From assembly GCA_947469485.1 (NCBI GenBank), contig CANIPU010000007.1:78637-142636 (forward strand): 64,000 nt of DNA, given 5' to 3'. The notes beneath the pieces were generated by a model. The model ran no database searches. It was not told where the DNA came from and worked only from the letters and a program-made list of their open reading frames with translations. The DNA comes from Chitinophagaceae bacterium (GTDB lineage Bacteria; Bacteroidota; Bacteroidia; Chitinophagales; UBA10324). How positions within the stretch are numbered: position 1 is the stretch's first letter; each line of letters starts with the position of its first letter. The position numbers and the translations under genes are program-made. Positions 1-7,370 of this stretch are shown here, one piece after another.

Positions 1-2670
1 GCAGGTGTGTTCAAGGTTGTTGTTTCTAATGTCGTTTGCTGCTGCAATGATTTTGTTTTTTATTCCTTCAAGGTCATTTGCTGTTAGTTCGTTTTTGTAA
101 CCTTCATTTGTGTCAAGGTTGTATATCTGTAAGAAGTCAGCATTTTCTCCTGTCAAGGCACGATAACCCAATGCGTAAAGCTGCAACTGGTCAATGGTTG
201 CACTGTATGCCTGTGAATCTTCTGTTGATTTGAAATCAACTATTGTTTTTTCAAAAGTGCCATCAAAATTTTTCTTTTTGATTAAGTCCATTTTGCCACT
301 TACTAAAATACCTTCTCCTAAGTCAAGTTGTATTTGCTTTTCAGCAAATTCAATTTGATTGAACTCGGGTGAATTTTTATCATAATAAATATTCACTGCG
401 GTGTCTGCCTTTGTTGTCATGGCGGCAGTTATCTTTTCCGTTGCATAAGGAAAATTAGTGTGCCTGTTTAAAAGCGTTTCTAATTCTGTTTTTGCAATTT
501 CATTTCCGTCAAGATATTCTCTATGCAATTCCATCAGTGTATTGTGTATTGCAGAACCATAACCCATTCTTGCACCCAATGGAGATTGAAAACCATAGAA
601 TGTATAAAACTTGAAACTGTAAGGACAATCAAAAAATGATTTCAGCAATGAGAAAGTGAGTGAAATATTTGATAAGTCCAAAAATGGTTTTGGTGTGCCG
701 TGTTCTCTTTCTGCATAATTGCGGTTTGGTGAAATAATTACATAGTCAGATGCTCTTACTTCATTTCCAAAAATTGATTCATTGCCTTGCTGCCTTCCAT
801 CGGGGGCACGGCTCATTAGAAGGAATTTTTTTGCCCTTGTGATTGCTACATACATTAACCTTCTTTCATCTTCCGGTCTTGGAAAATATCTTTCAACTCC
901 TCTGATTAAAGTTCTTTCAATGAAATGCCAAACTTGTTTTCCTGATGGTTGTTTTGAAGGCAAATAATTTTTATTCAGTCCCGGAATAAACACTACTGGA
1001 AACTCCAACCCTTTTGCTTGGTAGATAGTCATTATCTGCACTGCGTTTGGAGTTTTGTAAGTGTTGTTTTGCCAACCTTCGGGATAGTAGTCGGCTGCTG
1101 AATAAAGTAAGAAACTTAGAAAGGTTGAAAGTTTTCTGTCGGGTGGATATGTGAAGTAAATTGTTTCAAAATCATTTATGATTTGACTGAACATACCAAG
1201 GTTGTAAAAAATTATTTCTTCGTTGCTGAACCCTGTTACTTCTGCTGCTTCATCAGAAAAAAGGTCTTCACGGATTCCTGCTTTGTCAAGGAATGTTTGA
1301 AAGATTACTTGAATGTTGAATCTTTCGTAGTAGGTGTTTTTGTTGGGTTTGTTCTTATCAAGAAAAGCAATTGCATCATTTAGTTTTTCCTCTGTTACAT
1401 TGTCGCTAAGTGATAGCCAATGATGTTTCAATGTTTCTTTGTCAAGCTGTGCATTGAGATACATAAAGATTGCCTTTGATGCACCTACTTCATGCCGTTG
1501 GAATAAATTATTTACACCTGAAACAATGAAAGGAATTTGTGCTGCTTGCAGTGCTTCAATTATTGCATCTGCTTTTTTCCATTTACGGACAAGTATGACA
1601 AAGTCAGAATAGTCAAGCCCCCTGTGTTCTAATTCGGGTTTGTCTTGAAATAATGTACCTCTTAAATTGCGAATAGAATTTACAATGTTTTCATTTTCTT
1701 CTTCAACTGTGTTGAACTGGTTGTAAAGAATATCGCCTTTCTCATAGGTCTGAAAACCCTTTGCAACCATTTGTTTTGGTAGTCGTGCTGAATTGTTGGT
1801 GATGACTTTCAAGGCAACATCTACAATTGCTTTTGAACTTCGGAAGTTATCGTTCAAGATAACTTCTTTTACATTGTTGTATCGTTCTTTGAAGTGTTGT
1901 ATGTAATCAATATCACTACCACGCCACTGAAAAATTGTTTGGTCATCATCTCCTACAACACAAGTGTTTGCACCTAATTCGTAAAGCTCCCTAACCAATG
2001 CTTCTTGAATTGGGTTGACATCCTGATACTCGTCAACTATTAAATAGCCAATGTTGTTTTTGATTTTATTGCGAAAGGCATCATCATTTTTTATGTGATG
2101 AAATGCCTTTGTCATAATCATTGTAAAGTCAAGGTAGCAGCTTTGTTGAAGTGTTTTTTCATATTGTTCTAATGCTGTGAAAAGGTCTGCCGGAACATCT
2201 TCACGATTATGAAAATCTGCTTCACGAAGTATTCCCATTAACTGAATGAAATGCCCTGTGTCCTTAAACCTATCCATATCAAGGGCTTTCATTCCAATGG
2301 TTGAAAACTTTCTTTCAACAAAAAGTTTTAGCTTGATTTCATCAAGCACTGAAAACTTTTGAAATTCATATTTGTAATCCTGTAAAACATTTAAGCACCA
2401 AGCATGTATTGTTCCGATATACATTTCTGAAAGCCCTTTCAAATCGGGTAATTGCTCACGGCAAAGTTTTAAGATTCTTGCCTGTAATTCTCCTGCTGCT
2501 TTTTCGGTGTAGGTGAACGCAATTACTTTTGAAGGTGGTGTGCCTTGTTTCAGTATGTTGATGATGCGTTCTGAAATAACTTGGGTCTTGCCTGAACCAG
2601 CACAAGCGATGATAAGAAGGTTCTTATCAAGCGTATTCATTGCATTAATCTGTTCAGGTGTGTATTTCAT
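1..2670 (-). CDS. UvrD/Rep-type DNA helicase fused to RecB-like nuclease (3' end outside window)
   Basis: I translated this frame myself: it is open from the ATG at 2670 to the left edge (890 codons, no stop), so the C-terminus is missing. All superfamily 1A helicase motifs are visible: Q motif near residue 5, Walker A GSGKT at 25-29, FTYTEKAA near 52, VDEYQD near 212-217 (motif II), GDDDQTIFQWRG near 240 (motif III), TIYQAKGLEF near 548 (motif V) and YVAITRAK near 607 (motif VI). After about residue 690 comes a PD-(D/E)XK nuclease of the RecB/AddB type: a helix with H in AIHNTLMELH near 700, SGKMDLI near 790 and the catalytic VDFKS near 811. It is expected to be a 3'-5' DNA translocase that cleaves DNA. 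It overlaps the upstream XRE gene by ATGA, so the two are co-translated. A housekeeping repair role is possible, but the position on a tRNA-linked island suggests cargo such as defence. Confidence 0.9.
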   Translation of the reverse strand, partial: MKYTPEQINAMNTLDKNLLIIACAGSGKTQVISERIINILKQGTPPSKVIAFTYTEKAAGELQARILKLCREQLPDLKGLSEMYIGTIHAWCLNVLQDYKYEFQKFSVLDEIKLKLFVERKFSTIGMKALDMDRFKDTGHFIQLMGILREADFHNREDVPADLFTALEQYEKTLQQSCYLDFTMIMTKAFHHIKNDDAFRNKIKNNIGYLIVDEYQDVNPIQEALVRELYELGANTCVVGDDDQTIFQWRGSDIDYIQHFKERYNNVKEVILNDNFRSSKAIVDVALKVITNNSARLPKQMVAKGFQTYEKGDILYNQFNTVEEENENIVNSIRNLRGTLFQDKPELEHRGLDYSDFVILVRKWKKADAIIEALQAAQIPFIVSGVNNLFQRHEVGASKAIFMYLNAQLDKETLKHHWLSLSDNVTEEKLNDAIAFLDKNKPNKNTYYERFNIQVIFQTFLDKAGIREDLFSDEAAEVTGFSNEEIIFYNLGMFSQIINDFETIYFTYPPDRKLSTFLSFLLYSAADYYPEGWQNNTYKTPNAVQIMTIYQAKGLEFPVVFIPGLNKNYLPSKQPSGKQVWHFIERTLIRGVERYFPRPEDERRLMYVAITRAKKFLLMSRAPDGRQQGNESIFGNEVRASDYVIISPNRNYAEREHGTPKPFLDLSNISLTFSLLKSFFDCPYSFKFYTFYGFQSPLGARMGYGSAIHNTLMELHREYLDGNEIAKTELETLLNRHTNFPYATEKITAAMTTKADTAVNIYYDKNSPEFNQIEFAEKQIQLDLGEGILVSGKMDLIKKKNFDGTFEKTIVDFKSTEDSQAYSATIDQLQLYALGYRALTGENADFLQIYNLDTNEGYKNELTANDLEGIKNKIIAAANDIRNNNLEHTC

Positions 2671-2993
2671 TTCTTGTTCAAATTGTTTTTATAATACTTA
2701 ATTTCTTTTAGTGCTTGCTTCAAAACAACAGAGCCAAAAATTTCATGAGCTAATTCTAATAAAATTTTTTCACTAAGAAACTTTATAACTAATTTTCTTT
2801 CACTGGTTTTATATAGCAATGCAAATTTGGGGAGTAGCTTTCTGCTGATATTTCTTTCACCTCTTTCCATCTTGCTGAGAATGGCAATGTCAATGCGCAA
2901 ATGAGCGGCAGCGAGTGTTAGCGAGATTTTTTTTCTCATGCGAAGATTGCGAAGCAATGCGCCAAGAGAAATGTTTTCAGATTGGTTTGACAC
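2667..2993 (-). CDS. Small XRE-family HTH transcriptional regulator
   Basis: 108 residues with an N-terminal XRE/Cro-type helix-turn-helix (about residues 8-62: LGALLRNLRMRKKISLTLAA, then an ILSKMERGERNIS recognition segment) and a C-terminal helical tail ending in a lysine/asparagine-rich stretch. The start is GTG at 2993. The gene overlaps the helicase-nuclease start by four bases (ATGA), which makes one translational unit. The architecture resembles the short regulators that precede restriction or defence genes in Bacteroidota and act on their own promoter. A perfect 7-bp inverted repeat lies exactly on its start codon (2987-3003), fitting autoregulation, although that is inference. Function as a DNA-binding regulator is well supported; the controlled genes are inferred from linkage. 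Confidence 0.85.
   Translation of the reverse strand: MSNQSENISLGALLRNLRMRKKISLTLAAAHLRIDIAILSKMERGERNISRKLLPKFALLYKTSERKLVIKFLSEKILLELAHEIFGSVVLKQALKEIKYYKNNLNKK
2946..2958. repeat. Inverted repeat ATTGC-GAA-GCAAT containing GCGAAGC
   Basis: A perfect 5-bp inverted repeat around a GAA spacer lies inside the 5' part of the XRE gene. Its core TGCGAAGCA is identical to the core of the hairpin at 3029-3043. GCGAAGC is known from biophysical work as an exceptionally stable DNA mini-hairpin. Confidence 0.5.
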
Positions 2994-3003
2994 GAAGTGT
3001 CAA
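2987..3003. promoter_or_regulatory. Palindrome TTGACAC-GAA-GTGTCAA on the XRE start codon
   Basis: Two perfect 7-bp arms separated by GAA; the left arm contains the GTG start codon of the XRE gene. A small HTH regulator often binds such a dyad over its own start or promoter, so this is a candidate autoregulatory operator. The palindrome is directly visible; the function is inferred. Confidence 0.5.
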
Positions 3004-3028
3004 TACTAATAAAATGATTTGAAACAAA

Positions 3029-3043
3029 AGCTGCGAAGCAGCT
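3029..3043. repeat. Hairpin AGCTGC-GAA-GCAGCT upstream of XRE gene
   Basis: A perfect 6-bp inverted repeat with the same GAA spacer as the palindrome at 2987-3003, located 36 bp upstream of the XRE start. It also contains GCGAAGC. It could be a second operator half-set or a 5'-leader hairpin. Confidence 0.5.
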
Positions 3044-3062
3044 AATGTTGAAAAATATGTGT

Positions 3063-3072
3063 GGGGGGGGGG
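3063..3072. repeat. Homopolymer tract of ten G
   Basis: A run of ten G (C10 on the coding strand of the XRE operon) sits about 70 bp upstream of the XRE start, in the likely promoter/leader region. Runs of this length in AT-rich genomes are prone to slippage. Confidence 0.7.
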
Positions 3073-3180: not shown

Positions 3181-4503
3181 TTATTCGGGCAAATCTGTTT
3201 CCATTCGAAACCTTGACTGATAACCAGCTAACTCTACATCTTTCAACTTCATAGCATAGATCCATCTGTTTTTGCGTTTCAGGCGATGAAACTTATTCTT
3301 CTTCAAAGCCCTACCCAATTTGTTTACCATTGAATCAGTGATATTCAAATTTGCTTTCTCTGCAAGAGCAGTTGCAATTGCGGTGGCGGAAAGAAAAAGG
3401 GTGCATCCTTCTACTTCTGCCGGTTCGTAATTAGAAAGTAATAATTCTTCTTCAACTGATACCACACTATACTGTTCGTTGTTTGCAGAAATCTTTTCAA
3501 TCTCTTCCTGGTCGAACCAAAACTTAAACTCTTTCGATTTGAAAAGGTGATATGCCTGAGCATAAACCTTACTCAAATCAATTTCGTGATTGAAATTTAT
3601 TTCAAGCGATTCAAAGCAAAGGAATCTTCTGGAACCCGTGGTGTCATTGAGGAATTGTTTACTGTTAACCGAGCCAGCGAATGAAGCGCGGCGAGGCAGG
3701 TTCTCATTGTTAATCCCATATGGACGGCGAATGCGAATTCCGTTTTTGGTAATCAATTCTTTCAAGCTCCCGATTTCGGATTTGTTCAGGTTTTCCAATT
3801 CGTCAAGGTTAATCAACATGCACTCGGAGAGCTGAATGATTGTATCCTTATTGTTCGGATTAATAGTACCTGAGAACTTGTAAGTTTTCAGTTGATCAGG
3901 AATAAGGTTGAGCATCCAAGTTGTTTTACCTACACCCTGCTTACCTGAAAAAACAATCACAGTGTGATTGATTGTTTCATCGTCGAGAGCGCAAGCGACC
4001 ATTGCTACTAACCATTTTTTGAAGCAAGCTTGCCAAAGCTCATCGTCGTTGGTTTTTACAGTAGCAGCGAGAGCTGCGATATGGTCTGTTTGGCCATCCC
4101 ATTCCGGTAATGAGTTGAAGTATTCAACGAATGGGTCGTAAACTTCGGAGAAGTTGGAGTTCAGCAACGAACGAAGTGAAGTGCTGTAAGCTCCAATTTT
4201 GTTTTTCTGCAGTTCACGAAGAATAGAATTAGCAATGTAATCCGATAGGATTATATACTTACTCTCTTCTTTGAATTTGTATTCTATCTGCCCTATTACT
4301 TTGTTGTAACGGAAATCGAATCGCTTGTTGAGGTGCGCCTCCATGATGTCAATGTTGGAATGGCTCATTTCTGATTCTGTTTCAGGCAGCCGCTCTACCG
4401 GGGCTGCTTCTGAAATTACCTCCGCTACAGCGGGAATTATCTTTGTATCTAATAGTAAAATCTCTAATGGAGATTCCGGTTTTAATAAATTAGCTTGTTG
4501 CAT
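3181..4503 (-). CDS. VapE/VirE-family P-loop protein of a mobile element
   Basis: 440 residues matching the virulence-associated E (VapE/VirE, PF05272-like) helicase-type ATPase found in phage satellites, prophages and mobilizable islands. Visible: Walker A GKQGVGKTT at 187-195, Walker B LINLDELENL near 230-238, a sensor-like SVNSKQFLNDTTGSRRF near 278-294 with a candidate arginine finger, and a C-terminal winged-helix-like basic segment (about 375-425). The N-terminal 50 residues are low-conservation; no primase domain is present in this protein. It is the last gene of a leftward operon and overlaps the KilAC gene by 14 bp. The likely role is element replication or interference with a helper phage; the family role is established only in part. 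Confidence 0.85.
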   Translation of the reverse strand: MQQANLLKPESPLEILLLDTKIIPAVAEVISEAAPVERLPETESEMSHSNIDIMEAHLNKRFDFRYNKVIGQIEYKFKEESKYIILSDYIANSILRELQKNKIGAYSTSLRSLLNSNFSEVYDPFVEYFNSLPEWDGQTDHIAALAATVKTNDDELWQACFKKWLVAMVACALDDETINHTVIVFSGKQGVGKTTWMLNLIPDQLKTYKFSGTINPNNKDTIIQLSECMLINLDELENLNKSEIGSLKELITKNGIRIRRPYGINNENLPRRASFAGSVNSKQFLNDTTGSRRFLCFESLEINFNHEIDLSKVYAQAYHLFKSKEFKFWFDQEEIEKISANNEQYSVVSVEEELLLSNYEPAEVEGCTLFLSATAIATALAEKANLNITDSMVNKLGRALKKNKFHRLKRKNRWIYAMKLKDVELAGYQSRFRMETDLPE

Positions 4504-4819
4504 AATTGCCTTGGTTGTTAGTTAATAATTGTTTGATGTATTCCATTCCTTTTAATGAAACCAGTGTAACAGTTTGGACAAACAAGATTTGACCATAGCT
4601 GTTAGTAATATCCTTAATCACATACTTAAAATATCCTCTGTCAATAAATTGTTGATATGGTTCATTAGAACCATTAATCACTTGGTTATCTCTCAGGAAT
4701 TTGAATAGCTTCGTGCGCCCAATTCCATTGACACTAATAATCTTGGCTGTTTCCTTCATGTCATACCAATTCTCTCCTTGCGGGTGTCCCGCTGTCGTTA
4801 TTTTGTTTACTTGAATCAT
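4490..4819 (-). CDS. KilAC-type phage antirepressor domain protein
   Basis: 109 residues made up almost entirely of a KilAC/ANT domain (PF03374-like): WYDMKETAKIISVNGIGRTK near 18-37, KLFKFLRDNQVI, PYQQFIDRGYFKYV and a final VSLKGMEYIKQLL helix. Such domains are DNA-binding modules of phage antirepressors, normally at the C-terminus of a BRO/AntA protein; here the domain stands alone. The start at 4819 overlaps the stop of the upstream HTH gene (ATGA) and its end overlaps the VapE gene, so all three are probably translated together. The role is likely control of island genes; target unknown. Confidence 0.8.
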   Translation of the reverse strand: MIQVNKITTAGHPQGENWYDMKETAKIISVNGIGRTKLFKFLRDNQVINGSNEPYQQFIDRGYFKYVIKDITNSYGQILFVQTVTLVSLKGMEYIKQLLTNNQGNYATS

Positions 4820-5097
4820 AGATTCACTTTTTTGTTAAAATGCTTCATCATCATTTGTTCGATGTCGCTGAGTTTATAAAATAATTTAGAACCAATCTTG
4901 GAGTGCGGAAGTATGCCGCGGTCTCTCCACTCTTGCCCGGTTCGGGGGCTGATTTTCAGTAATCTGATTAAATCTGAGTTGTCAATATACTGAAAATTCT
5001 TCTCGTACTGTTCGCCGTCCTTCGGCATCAAACTAATTATGTGTTCCAGCTTAATTAATACCTGCTGGAGAAGGTTTTCTATTTCCAAATTGACCAT
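4816..5097 (-). CDS. Excisionase-like HTH_17 protein (second copy)
   Basis: 93 residues: an N-terminal amphipathic helix (about 3-30) followed by a MerR/excisionase-type winged HTH (about 38-85: YIDNSDLIRLLKISPRTGQE, WRDRGILPHSKIGSKLFY, LSDIEQMM). Proteins of this type in Bacteroidota integrative elements act as excision directionality factors or regulators. It is related in architecture to the neighbour at 5219-5491 (same helix plus HTH, IGSKLFYKLSDIE against LGGTLFYDYEEIQ), suggesting duplication. It overlaps the KilAC start by ATGA. The start ATG lacks a Shine-Dalgarno; translation may depend on coupling or on a free leader. Confidence 0.8.
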   Translation of the reverse strand: MVNLEIENLLQQVLIKLEHIISLMPKDGEQYEKNFQYIDNSDLIRLLKISPRTGQEWRDRGILPHSKIGSKLFYKLSDIEQMMMKHFNKKVNL

Positions 5098-5163: not shown

Positions 5164-5222
5164 TTACTGTTTTTGTTCTGTCATAGGGCTACCTCCTTTT
5201 TTTTAGTGATAAAATTTGTCAT
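5164..5222 (-). other. Two chained mini-ORFs with a strong Shine-Dalgarno between HTH genes
   Basis: The upstream HTH stop overlaps ATG 5222 (ATGA) of a 13-codon ORF reading MTNFITKKKEVAL, whose TGA in turn overlaps ATG 5184 of a 6-codon ORF reading MTEQKQ. A perfect GGAGGT (5191-5196) preceded by A8 lies 6 bp before the second ATG. These may be coupled leader peptides or reinitiation relays. The sequence features are visible; expression is not proven. Confidence 0.4.
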
Positions 5223-5491
5223 GCAATGTTCTTTTTGTTCTTCTCAATTACTGATTGGATTTCTTCGTAGTCGTAGAATAGAGTTCCTCCAAGTTTACTG
5301 AACGGGATAACTCCCGCTATTCTAAGATTTTGTAAACTGGATGCTGAGATGCCAAGCATCTCCGCTACCTCACTACTTTTCATATATCTTTTGCCAGGGT
5401 TACTGGCTTTGCTAAGAGCATCTGTAAGATGCGAAATAATTTCATTCTTCATCTGAAGAATGTCTGACTGAGTAACAATGTTTATGTCCAT
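5219..5491 (-). CDS. Excisionase-like HTH_17 protein (first copy)
   Basis: 90 residues with an N-terminal helix (about 8-30) and a MerR/excisionase-type HTH (about 36-82: YMKSSEVAEMLGISASSLQN, LRIAGVIPFSKLGGTLFYDY, EEIQSVIEK). It is the first gene of the leftward operon that runs through the second HTH gene, KilAC and VapE. The 288 bp between it and the integrase stop must hold its promoter. By analogy with NBU/Tn4555-like elements of Bacteroides, two such HTH proteins beside the integrase commonly regulate or direct excision. No catalytic domain is present. Confidence 0.8.
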   Translation of the reverse strand: MDINIVTQSDILQMKNEIISHLTDALSKASNPGKRYMKSSEVAEMLGISASSLQNLRIAGVIPFSKLGGTLFYDYEEIQSVIEKNKKNIA

Positions 5492-5779: not shown

Positions 5780-7012
5780 TTAAGCAATTTTCAAGATTTT
5801 GTTTTTCATTCTTGACTTTAACCCTTGCATTTCATCAGACACGCGACTGTCCATCATGCGCGCATAAATTTTTGTGGTGTTCATGTTTGAGTGAGCGAGC
5901 ATTTTGCTTACTGCTTCCAAACTGATGCCATTTGCAAGTGTAACGGTTGTGGCGAAAGTATGCCGGGCAAGGTGTGAAGAAATATTTTTATTGATTTCAC
6001 ATAAGTCACCAATCTCTTTTAAGTAAGCGTTCATCTTTTGATTACTGAGAACAGGAAGCAAGACACCTTTATTGATGCACATCGGATTTTCTTTGTACCT
6101 GTTCAAAATTTTCAGTGCTTCGGGAAGCAATGGAACATTCACATTTGAATTTGTTTTCGTGCGGTGTGTGCTTATCCAAAGCTCACCATCCGCACCTTTA
6201 ACAATGTGTTCCGGTTTTAATTTATTGACATCAGCATAAGCCAAACCAGTGTAACACTGAAAAAGAAAAGCATCTTTAACCTGCTGCATTCTAGGAATGG
6301 AAAAAGTTTTCGCTGCGAGTTTGTCTAATTCTTCTTGTGTTAAATATCCGCGGTCAACTTTTTTCAACTTGGGTTTGTAATTCAAGAATGGGTCCCGAAG
6401 CAACCAACCATTCGCAATAGCAATGCGAATAATTTTCTTGAAGTTCTTTATGTATTTGATGGTGGTGTTGTTCGCACACTTGCGAACTGAGCGCAGATAG
6501 TAATCAAGCTCAGTGATGAACTCATTATCTATATCACACAAAAAGAAATCTGATTTATTGTAACGCGACAAAACGAATGCACGCAAGTGATGTAAGCATG
6601 TTGTATATCTATCTAAAGTTCCGGCTGCGAAATCCTGACCGACTAATGATTTTACTTTCGCGTTGTGGTCTTCGAATATTGCAAACAAACTTTTTGACTT
6701 GGTAGAAATACCGAGGTAAGAATTTTTTATCGCCTCTGCTGTAACAGTTTTGTTTGCATCTTCCAACATGCGATGATGGTCATAAATTTTTGTGCGCACT
6801 GTATCAATATAAGTATTGATGCTTTTGAATTCCTCGCTTGAACCTTTGATGATTTCATTTCCGGGAACCCATCTTTCAATTGGTGCTTCTCGCTTGATTG
6901 CAAGTTCACTTCTCTTTCCGTCAACTGTGATTCTACAATAAATGGGAGCATTGCCCAGGCTGTCTGCCTTGTCTTTTCTGATGTAGAACAGAATGTTTAA
7001 ATTTTTTACCAT
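5780..7012 (-). CDS. Tyrosine recombinase/integrase of a tRNA-Ser-linked mobile element
   Basis: 410 residues in the Bacteroidota site-specific integrase layout: arm-binding N-terminus (about 5-90), SAM-like core-binding domain (about 107-205), catalytic domain (about 222-395). Catalytic residues visible: K286 in RTKTN, H347 and R350 in HLAR, H374 in LAHSN and nucleophile Y383 in KIYARM. The usual first arginine of box I is replaced: the motif reads YTGLAYADV with alanine at 258. Loss of that arginine is known in related Bacteroides integrases such as IntDOT, so the enzyme is probably active. The gene lies 270 bp from tRNA-Ser and reads away from it, the usual layout for an element integrated in a tRNA 3' end. 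AGGTATC repeats lie directly upstream. Confidence 0.92.
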   Translation of the reverse strand: MVKNLNILFYIRKDKADSLGNAPIYCRITVDGKRSELAIKREAPIERWVPGNEIIKGSSEEFKSINTYIDTVRTKIYDHHRMLEDANKTVTAEAIKNSYLGISTKSKSLFAIFEDHNAKVKSLVGQDFAAGTLDRYTTCLHHLRAFVLSRYNKSDFFLCDIDNEFITELDYYLRSVRKCANNTTIKYIKNFKKIIRIAIANGWLLRDPFLNYKPKLKKVDRGYLTQEELDKLAAKTFSIPRMQQVKDAFLFQCYTGLAYADVNKLKPEHIVKGADGELWISTHRTKTNSNVNVPLLPEALKILNRYKENPMCINKGVLLPVLSNQKMNAYLKEIGDLCEINKNISSHLARHTFATTVTLANGISLEAVSKMLAHSNMNTTKIYARMMDSRVSDEMQGLKSRMKNKILKIA

Positions 7013-7281: not shown

Positions 7282-7285
7282 GATG

Positions 7286-7370
7286 CGGAGAGAAAGGGAT
7301 TCGAACCCCTGGAACATTGCTGTTCAACGGTTTTCAAGACCGCCGCTATCGACCGCTCAGCCATCTCTCC
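7286..7370 (-). tRNA. tRNA-Ser (anticodon UGA)
   Basis: 85 nt, class II with a long variable arm. The acceptor stem GGAGAGA pairs with TCTCTCC, discriminator G. D-arm GCTGAGCGG, anticodon loop CTTGAAA (anticodon TGA), T-arm GGGGTTCGAATCCC are all present. CCA is not encoded. Its 3' end faces the integrase, so it is the likely integration target of the island. I could not find a second copy of its 3' end in 1-7280, so the far boundary must lie outside the window. Confidence 0.95.

Follow-up and report, generated by a model that had tools for sequence, protein, structure and literature searches.

The left edge of a 64,000-nucleotide stretch of DNA from a Chitinophagaceae bacterium (the window) lies within a gene for a helicase-nuclease, in which a UvrD-type superfamily 1 (SF1) helicase is fused to a C-terminal nuclease. 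The window is C7:78637-142636, where C7 is contig CANIPU010000007.1, and the host genome comprises 3.08 Mb in 45 contigs. Together with a type III-like methyltransferase (Mod) and a restriction subunit (Res) encoded next to it, the helicase-nuclease probably forms a mobile restriction system equipped with its own enzyme for degrading DNA ends. This reading is carried by the order and spacing of the genes, the domains and active-site residues of their products, the island that holds them and its empty site in related genomes, and the finding of the helicase-nuclease in distant hosts, again next to Mod-Res or to other methyltransferases.

We infer that the proteins cooperate as follows. Mod is predicted to mark host DNA, and this methylation would protect the host. 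Invading DNA without the mark would be cut by Res, and the helicase-nuclease would use the resulting ends as its substrate, unwinding and degrading the DNA from there. Exonuclease VII, encoded in the same run of genes, would clear the single-stranded fragments. Destruction of restriction-cut DNA is commonly left to the RecBCD or AddAB of the host. A mobile system with its own helicase-nuclease and exonuclease VII could explain how restriction works against phages that block RecBCD and in hosts that have no enzymes of the RecBCD/AddAB type.

The gene run and its proteins

An earlier note, made from the letters of the window, described a small helix-turn-helix gene that overlaps a large helicase by ATGA, and proposed leftward extension as a check. 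Both genes are real and overlap at window positions 2667-2670. Extension yields the full helicase-nuclease of 903 amino acids (aa), of which 890 lie within the window and the rest past its left edge. The pair belongs to a run of eight co-directional genes at C7:67967-81629, and all eight reading frames are open. From the XRE gene onward, the successive gaps are -4, 9, 3, 39, -23, 12, and 88 bp. The 9-bp spacing between the helicase-nuclease and Mod suggests co-translation. The genes are listed in the order of the run:

window 2667..2993, minus strand: XRE/Cro-type helix-turn-helix gene, 108 aa, GTG start, first of the run (Pfam HTH_31, 33 bits, and HTH_3)
window 1..2670, whole gene C7:78595-81306, minus strand: UvrD-type SF1 helicase fused to a C-terminal Cas4/AddB-like PD-(D/E)XK nuclease (Pfam, alignments, predicted fold)
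C7:76618-78585 (L003:1982-3949), minus strand: Mod, type III-like methyltransferase, 655 aa (N6_N4_Mtase 122 bits; PADLOC MTase_III 313 bits)
C7:73402-76614, minus strand: Res, restriction subunit, 1070 aa (Pfam ResIII 81 bits)
C7:71923-73362, minus strand: XseA, 479 aa (TIGR00237 234.5 bits, cut-off 180)
C7:71733-71945, minus strand: XseB, 70 aa (PF02609 47.1 bits, cut-off 24)
between XseB and the RecQ-like helicase, minus strand: 118-aa protein, no Pfam match
C7:67967-71275, minus strand: RecQ-like helicase, 1102 aa

The helicase-nuclease matches the Pfam models UvrD-helicase (193 bits), UvrD_C (137 bits), and PDDEXK_1 (PF12705, 56 bits against a cut-off of 22), in agreement with the earlier assignment of an SF1 helicase with a C-terminal PD-(D/E)XK nuclease. 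Its predicted structure (confidence, pLDDT, 83) resembles UvrD, AddAB, RecB, and AdnB. The nuclease residues H709, D795, D812, K814, Q828, and Y832 are invariant across nine wide-ranging proteins that include the query (alignment A3). Among 30 close relatives (alignment A2), D812 is found in at least 90% and the remaining nuclease residues are invariant.

The protein also contains four cysteines, C682, C890, C895, and C897, the last two of which lie past the window edge. C682, C895, and C897 are invariant in the nine proteins of A3 and also in the 30 of A2, of which at least 90% have C890. The last cysteines are spaced C-x4-C-x-C in the query, as against the common C-x2-C spacing in several distant relatives of A3. 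Four cysteines spanning the nuclease domain are described as the iron-sulfur mark of AddAB, DNA2, and Cas4 in the passage of PMC7430649 on this feature. The cysteine set of the query is of this type, and the cluster itself is putative.

Mod has an intact motif I (FGGSG). Its motif IV reads DVPY, in which the D, the second P, and the Y are kept. The protein is labelled type III-like because motif IV is not DPP(Y/F).

Res is composed of a superfamily 2 (SF2) ATPase and a PD-(D/E)XK nuclease. The Walker A motif (102), DEAHH (232), QIIGRG (477), and the PD...ExK residues D828, E841, and K843 are invariant in 29 aligned Res proteins. The C-terminal tail of Res is predicted to adopt a LexA/UmuD fold, with Ala972 at the nucleophile position and Arg1017 at the lysine position. 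The Ser-Lys catalytic dyad has both residues in place in none of the 29 aligned Res, so the tail is described as LexA-like and not filed as an S24 peptidase. Six of the 120 listed Res matches (P0197, P0198, P0205, P0212, P0217, and P0220) bear a second LexA-like domain at the C-terminus with Ser and Lys in place. The more distant Res of G1039 and of a Thermotogota plasmid give no match with the tail profile; thus, as far as seen, the tail marks the subfamily of the query's Res.

The tail is read as a docking or dimer module. There is also a small chance that it acts as a sensor of RecA filaments, docking on single-stranded DNA coated with RecA, of the kind that the helicase-nuclease makes, and so switching restriction on at degraded invader DNA or off upon host damage. 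In the relatives with an intact-looking second copy, RecA-stimulated self-cleavage would then release or destroy the nuclease, a built-in form of restriction alleviation. Such a sensor would tie restriction directly to the SOS response. A word search of one open-access library found no S24/LexA domain on a type III Res. The predicted LexA-fold tail without the dyad, and the intact-looking second copy in some Res, are new as far as these searches go.

Exonuclease VII is complete in the run, with both XseA and XseB present, and the island XseA is the only one found in the query genome. PF02601, the XseA model, scores above cut-off in 5 of 30 genomes searched, including the query. Of the five further genus members, none is above cut-off, and three have sub-cut-off matches (E 4e-4 to 9e-4). 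The island therefore likely carried exonuclease VII into a genus otherwise without XseA above cut-off, which is new as far as the searches go. Apart from the island, exonuclease VII may be absent from the genus. XseA-XseB following Res is seen only in the query run; in three relatives read (G403, G407, and G396), the XseA-XseB loci have no Mod-Res.

The RecQ-like helicase was considered as a core part and rejected. Two plasmids, read out of eight matched records, show an HNH or a sigma-70-like gene beside its relative and no Mod-Res in the stretch shown. In G629, a different, DpdF-like helicase follows Res (L015:12026-16735, 1569 aa), located between the restriction genes and a Tmt-like cluster. 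Thus, the RecQ-like helicase is taken as extra cargo. PADLOC labels this protein 'poss. alt. Cas3'.

The island and the wider family

The run resides on an island of 21,906 bp, measured end to end between perfect 24-bp direct repeats of the tRNA-Ser 3' end. The right part of the island falls within the window and contains the following features:

window 7283..7306, unstranded: right end of the island, 24-bp direct repeat (left copy C7:64037-64060)
window 7285..7370, minus strand: tRNA-Ser (TGA), integration site
window 5780..7012, minus strand: tyrosine integrase of the island, beside the tRNA (Arm-DNA-bind_5, Phage_int_SAM_5, Phage_integrase)
window 4816-5097 and 5219-5491, minus strand: two small genes, helix-turn-helix/excisionase-like by reading of the sequence
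window 3181..4503, minus strand: VapE-like island gene (PF05272 143.5 bits)

Four of the five same-genus genomes searched (G448, G473, G478, and G483) have an empty site, in which the match to the left-flank gene is followed after 50-136 bp by the tRNA match. In the fifth, G437, the tRNA was found and the left-flank gene was not. The repeats, the integrase, and the empty sites identify the whole run as cargo, which bears out the earlier proposal that the pair rides on a tRNA-linked integrative island. Another island gene, of 323 aa (L002:7310-8281), has no Pfam match and weakly matches the candidate PADLOC families PDC-S02 and PDC-S31 (E 0.002-0.006).

Fourteen loci with a helicase-nuclease of this kind were read for neighbours, and ten of them have a methyltransferase within 3 kb. 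Mod and Res are both present in six: the query, L004 (Bacteroidota), L005 (Nitrospirota), G629, G1039, and the Thermotogota plasmid. The order helicase-nuclease, Mod, Res is the same in all six. In G629, a 337-aa gene lies between these genes. In G1039 the intervening gene encodes a 528-aa DUF4062 protein, and Mod and Res were identified by BLAST at 23%.

Three further loci contain a C5 methylase. A Priestia plasmid combines it with an MspI-type endonuclease and a Vsr gene (as annotated), and a Vibrio plasmid with an MvaI/BcnI endonuclease (by annotation and also Pfam). In G1036, Vsr was recognized by Pfam and the C5 methylase by sequence reading. A 285-aa NOV_C-domain protein beside these genes and the helicase-nuclease (L052:12338-13195) is a candidate endonuclease. 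An archaeal plasmid of Haloferax has an N6/N4 methylase near the helicase-nuclease. Directly after the two lies a gene for a 462-aa protein without a Pfam match (L024:9930-11318), a candidate new restriction endonuclease. In addition, 41 of the 120 listed helicase-nuclease matches pair with one of the 120 listed Res matches by equal contig size, compared with 0.5 for jittered sizes. All 41 are among the 80 matches on contigs of at least 8 kb.

A tree of 23 rows places the query in a group of 13 (support 98/97) with Bacteroidota, Nitrospirota, Priestia, Vibrio, and G1039 proteins; restriction genes lie near all seven members of this group whose neighbours were read. The Thermotogota, Haloferax, and G1036 proteins form long branches outside the group, and their place is unsure. 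The fusions of G1001 and G958 group with PcrA (100/99). Within the tree, the Nitrospirota protein of L005 sits among those of Bacteroidota, and the proteins of Maribacter and Winogradskyella hardly differ, a pattern expected of mobile genes.

The earlier note had held that a fixed chromosomal place across the phylum would favour a housekeeping repair role. At E<=1e-120, the helicase-nuclease was found in only one of the 395 genomes of the phylum, that of the query, and there it lies at a mobile site. Res is likewise found in 1 of the 395, again its own, and by profile in 2 of 396 genomes of the order, own included. Among 298 genomes of the G629 family, the helicase-nuclease profile picks out two, G629 and G871. 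These searches scored at most two candidates per genome (phylum and order) or three (family of G629), and copies may have been missed.

A wider search for fusions, with at most six candidates per genome, yielded 34 places in 33 genomes. Five of them, in G773, G1039, G1036, G1001, and G958, extend past model position 905, and 29 end at or before position 680. Judged by match range alone, these 29 were taken to be helicases that lack the nuclease part and were excluded; one of them, G1008:C70, scores 408 bits. Res gave no match in plasmids (1e-30), phages (1e-10), or viral contigs (single-sequence search), and its profile matched three viral contigs, at 22-25% identity level and only across parts of the helicase. 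The helicase-nuclease gave no match in phages at 1e-60.

The surroundings of other copies are also consistent with a likely role in defence, as the earlier note had suggested. The Nitrospirota copy (L005, G773) lies in a prophage-like stretch, among lysozyme-like and tape-measure-like genes recognized by reading of open reading frames. An ArdC-like gene was read in the same way in this stretch (L028:16097-16978). The copy of G629 is located in a defence island, with TmtA and ZorA/ZorB-like genes on one side and two Mokosh-like helicases on the other.

Alternative readings of the run

Several findings weigh against the proposed restriction system. The main one is the DVPY motif of Mod, as all five Mod relatives that have the motif IV block (L004, L005, G629, G1039, and the Thermotogota plasmid) carry DPPY or DPPF. 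Should the Mod of this copy be unable to methylate, the system is defective or operates in another way. Res reaches only 36 bits, in a partial match, with PADLOC REase_III, and has no good relative among solved structures; the Res of the Thermotogota plasmid does not match the PD-ExK profile built from the query's Res family. Four of the 14 loci show no methyltransferase, namely G1001, G958, G871 (a 5.2-kb contig), and L006/G774 (where the contig ends inside the gene). Membership of the family by PF12705 is not universal, the G629 protein P0053 being among those that fail the model. The linkage through equal contig sizes is indirect evidence. The motif IV substitution could also mean that Mod is impaired by now and that the island retains, as cargo, a restriction system that is decaying or inactive. 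This is quite improbable, given that every frame of the run is open and that motif I FGG and three of the four motif IV residues are kept; the missing dyad of the Res tail is uninformative on decay, because it is missing in 29 of 29. In an unlikely alternative, the helicase-nuclease acts on its own in repair or recombination, as an AdnB- or AddB-like enzyme, and only happens to travel close to restriction genes. It would process breaks in the host, including those made by restriction, and thereby protect the host. It has the fold and motifs of RecB, AddAB, and AdnB, the PcrA-grouped fusions of G1001 and G958 share the same ordinary chromosomal neighbours with no restriction genes seen, and an ancillary role is also allowed by PMC5704561 in its discussion of such fusions. 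However, restriction genes accompany every member of the query's clade whose neighbours were read, the query's copy is rare and mobile, and its spacing to Mod suggests that the two are translated together.

A further reading, put forward in the earlier note for defence, is that the XRE gene and the helicase-nuclease are a two-gene defence or toxin module of their own, with XRE holding a self-toxic nuclease in check. The ATGA overlap fits this proposal, and the XRE protein weakly resembles the controller proteins of restriction-modification systems (Control_protein E 0.0007). However, Mod and Res follow directly in the same run, and no XRE relative was seen beside the other loci read (BLAST E<=1e-4 or 1e-3). 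L004 has an unrelated, divergent gene for a MerR-type regulator in the XRE position. XRE homologues are few: seven matches at E<=1e-5, own cluster included, from 18 candidates, in a search of limited reach for short proteins. Two of the seven are on contigs above 3 kb, and neither contig is among the helicase-nuclease matches listed, as compared by size. A perfect 7-bp inverted repeat at window 2987-3003, overlapping the XRE start codon, was considered as an operator and dropped. When the 121-bp region was shuffled 2000 times, 84 of the shuffles held a repeat as good, and the repeat is therefore no evidence of an operator; the window's own rate of such repeats is 0.24 per 121 bp. An independent XRE module is thus very improbable, and the XRE gene likely serves, at most, for local regulation and stands outside the core of the system. 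The recurring partners, in 10 of 14 loci, are Mod-Res or other methyltransferases and not XRE, which supports mobile defence cargo and does not support the two-gene module.

Relation to known systems

The arrangement of a UvrD-Cas4 fusion with Mod and Res is not new, contrary to the earlier description as undescribed, since a prediction of it was published in 2017. Hudaiberdiev et al. (2017, PMC5704561), in the section on UvrD-Cas4 (pfam12705) fusions, give Mod-Res as the commonest neighbours and Dcm, in several cases with Vsr, as the second, and predict defence from this context. The likeness to the query is one of architecture and gene context: the same fusion of SF1 helicase and PF12705 nuclease with Cas4-like residues and cysteines, an adjoining Mod-Res, the same contexts among relatives (Mod with Res; Dcm with Vsr), and helix-turn-helix regulators nearby. 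In section 8 of that paper, Res is not said to bear a LexA-like domain, and neither exonuclease VII nor a tRNA island comes up. The fusion is cited in passing in PMC7641849. For the UvrD-Cas4/Mod/Res set, word searches of the same open-access library turned up no experiment. PMC2292703 describes, in passages, other sets of restriction genes that include SF2 helicases, methylases, and Vsr, and PMC12255303 has no bearing on the arrangement.

The query shares with type III restriction-modification, of the EcoP15I type and the N4-methylcytosine systems of PMC8259958, adjacent mod and res genes (3 bp apart here), motif IV before motif I, and an SF2 ATPase with PD-ExK. However, its Res scores poorly on type III models and bears the predicted LexA-like tail, in which Ala972 and Arg1017 replace the Ser and Lys of LexA, UmuD, and lambda CI S24 domains. 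The relevant passage of PMC8259958 describes, for more than 500 genomes, an additional helicase-like gene located 5' of mod. That gene, as described there, is SF2 without a nuclease motif, whereas the one here is SF1 with a nuclease.

As the earlier note had recognized, the gene content is not that of Gabija, Hachiman, or RecBCD. Gabija and Hachiman also pair a helicase with a nuclease in defence, and PADLOC GajB models match the helicase part of the query. However, the nuclease of the query is fused to the helicase, and Mod and Res are present. Among the matches listed for the ten island proteins scanned, there is no GajA (OLD-type ATPase-TOPRIM; PADLOC and others) and no HamA (PADLOC). AdnAB, AddAB, and RecBCD have in common with the query a UvrD-type motor and a RecB-type nuclease, but the query is accessory and mobile and has no second helicase-nuclease subunit in its run. 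No RecC/RecD, AddA/B, or AdnA lies alongside, the neighbours being XRE and Mod; the rest of the genome was not searched for them.

The protein Bad of Geobacillus is a DNA2-like iron-sulfur helicase-nuclease encoded beside a type III-like methyltransferase (PMC7430649). It differs from the query in its DNA2-like architecture, and the passage on it in that paper names no Res. Its authors suggest that Bad represents a new class of restriction enzymes that both unwind and degrade DNA.

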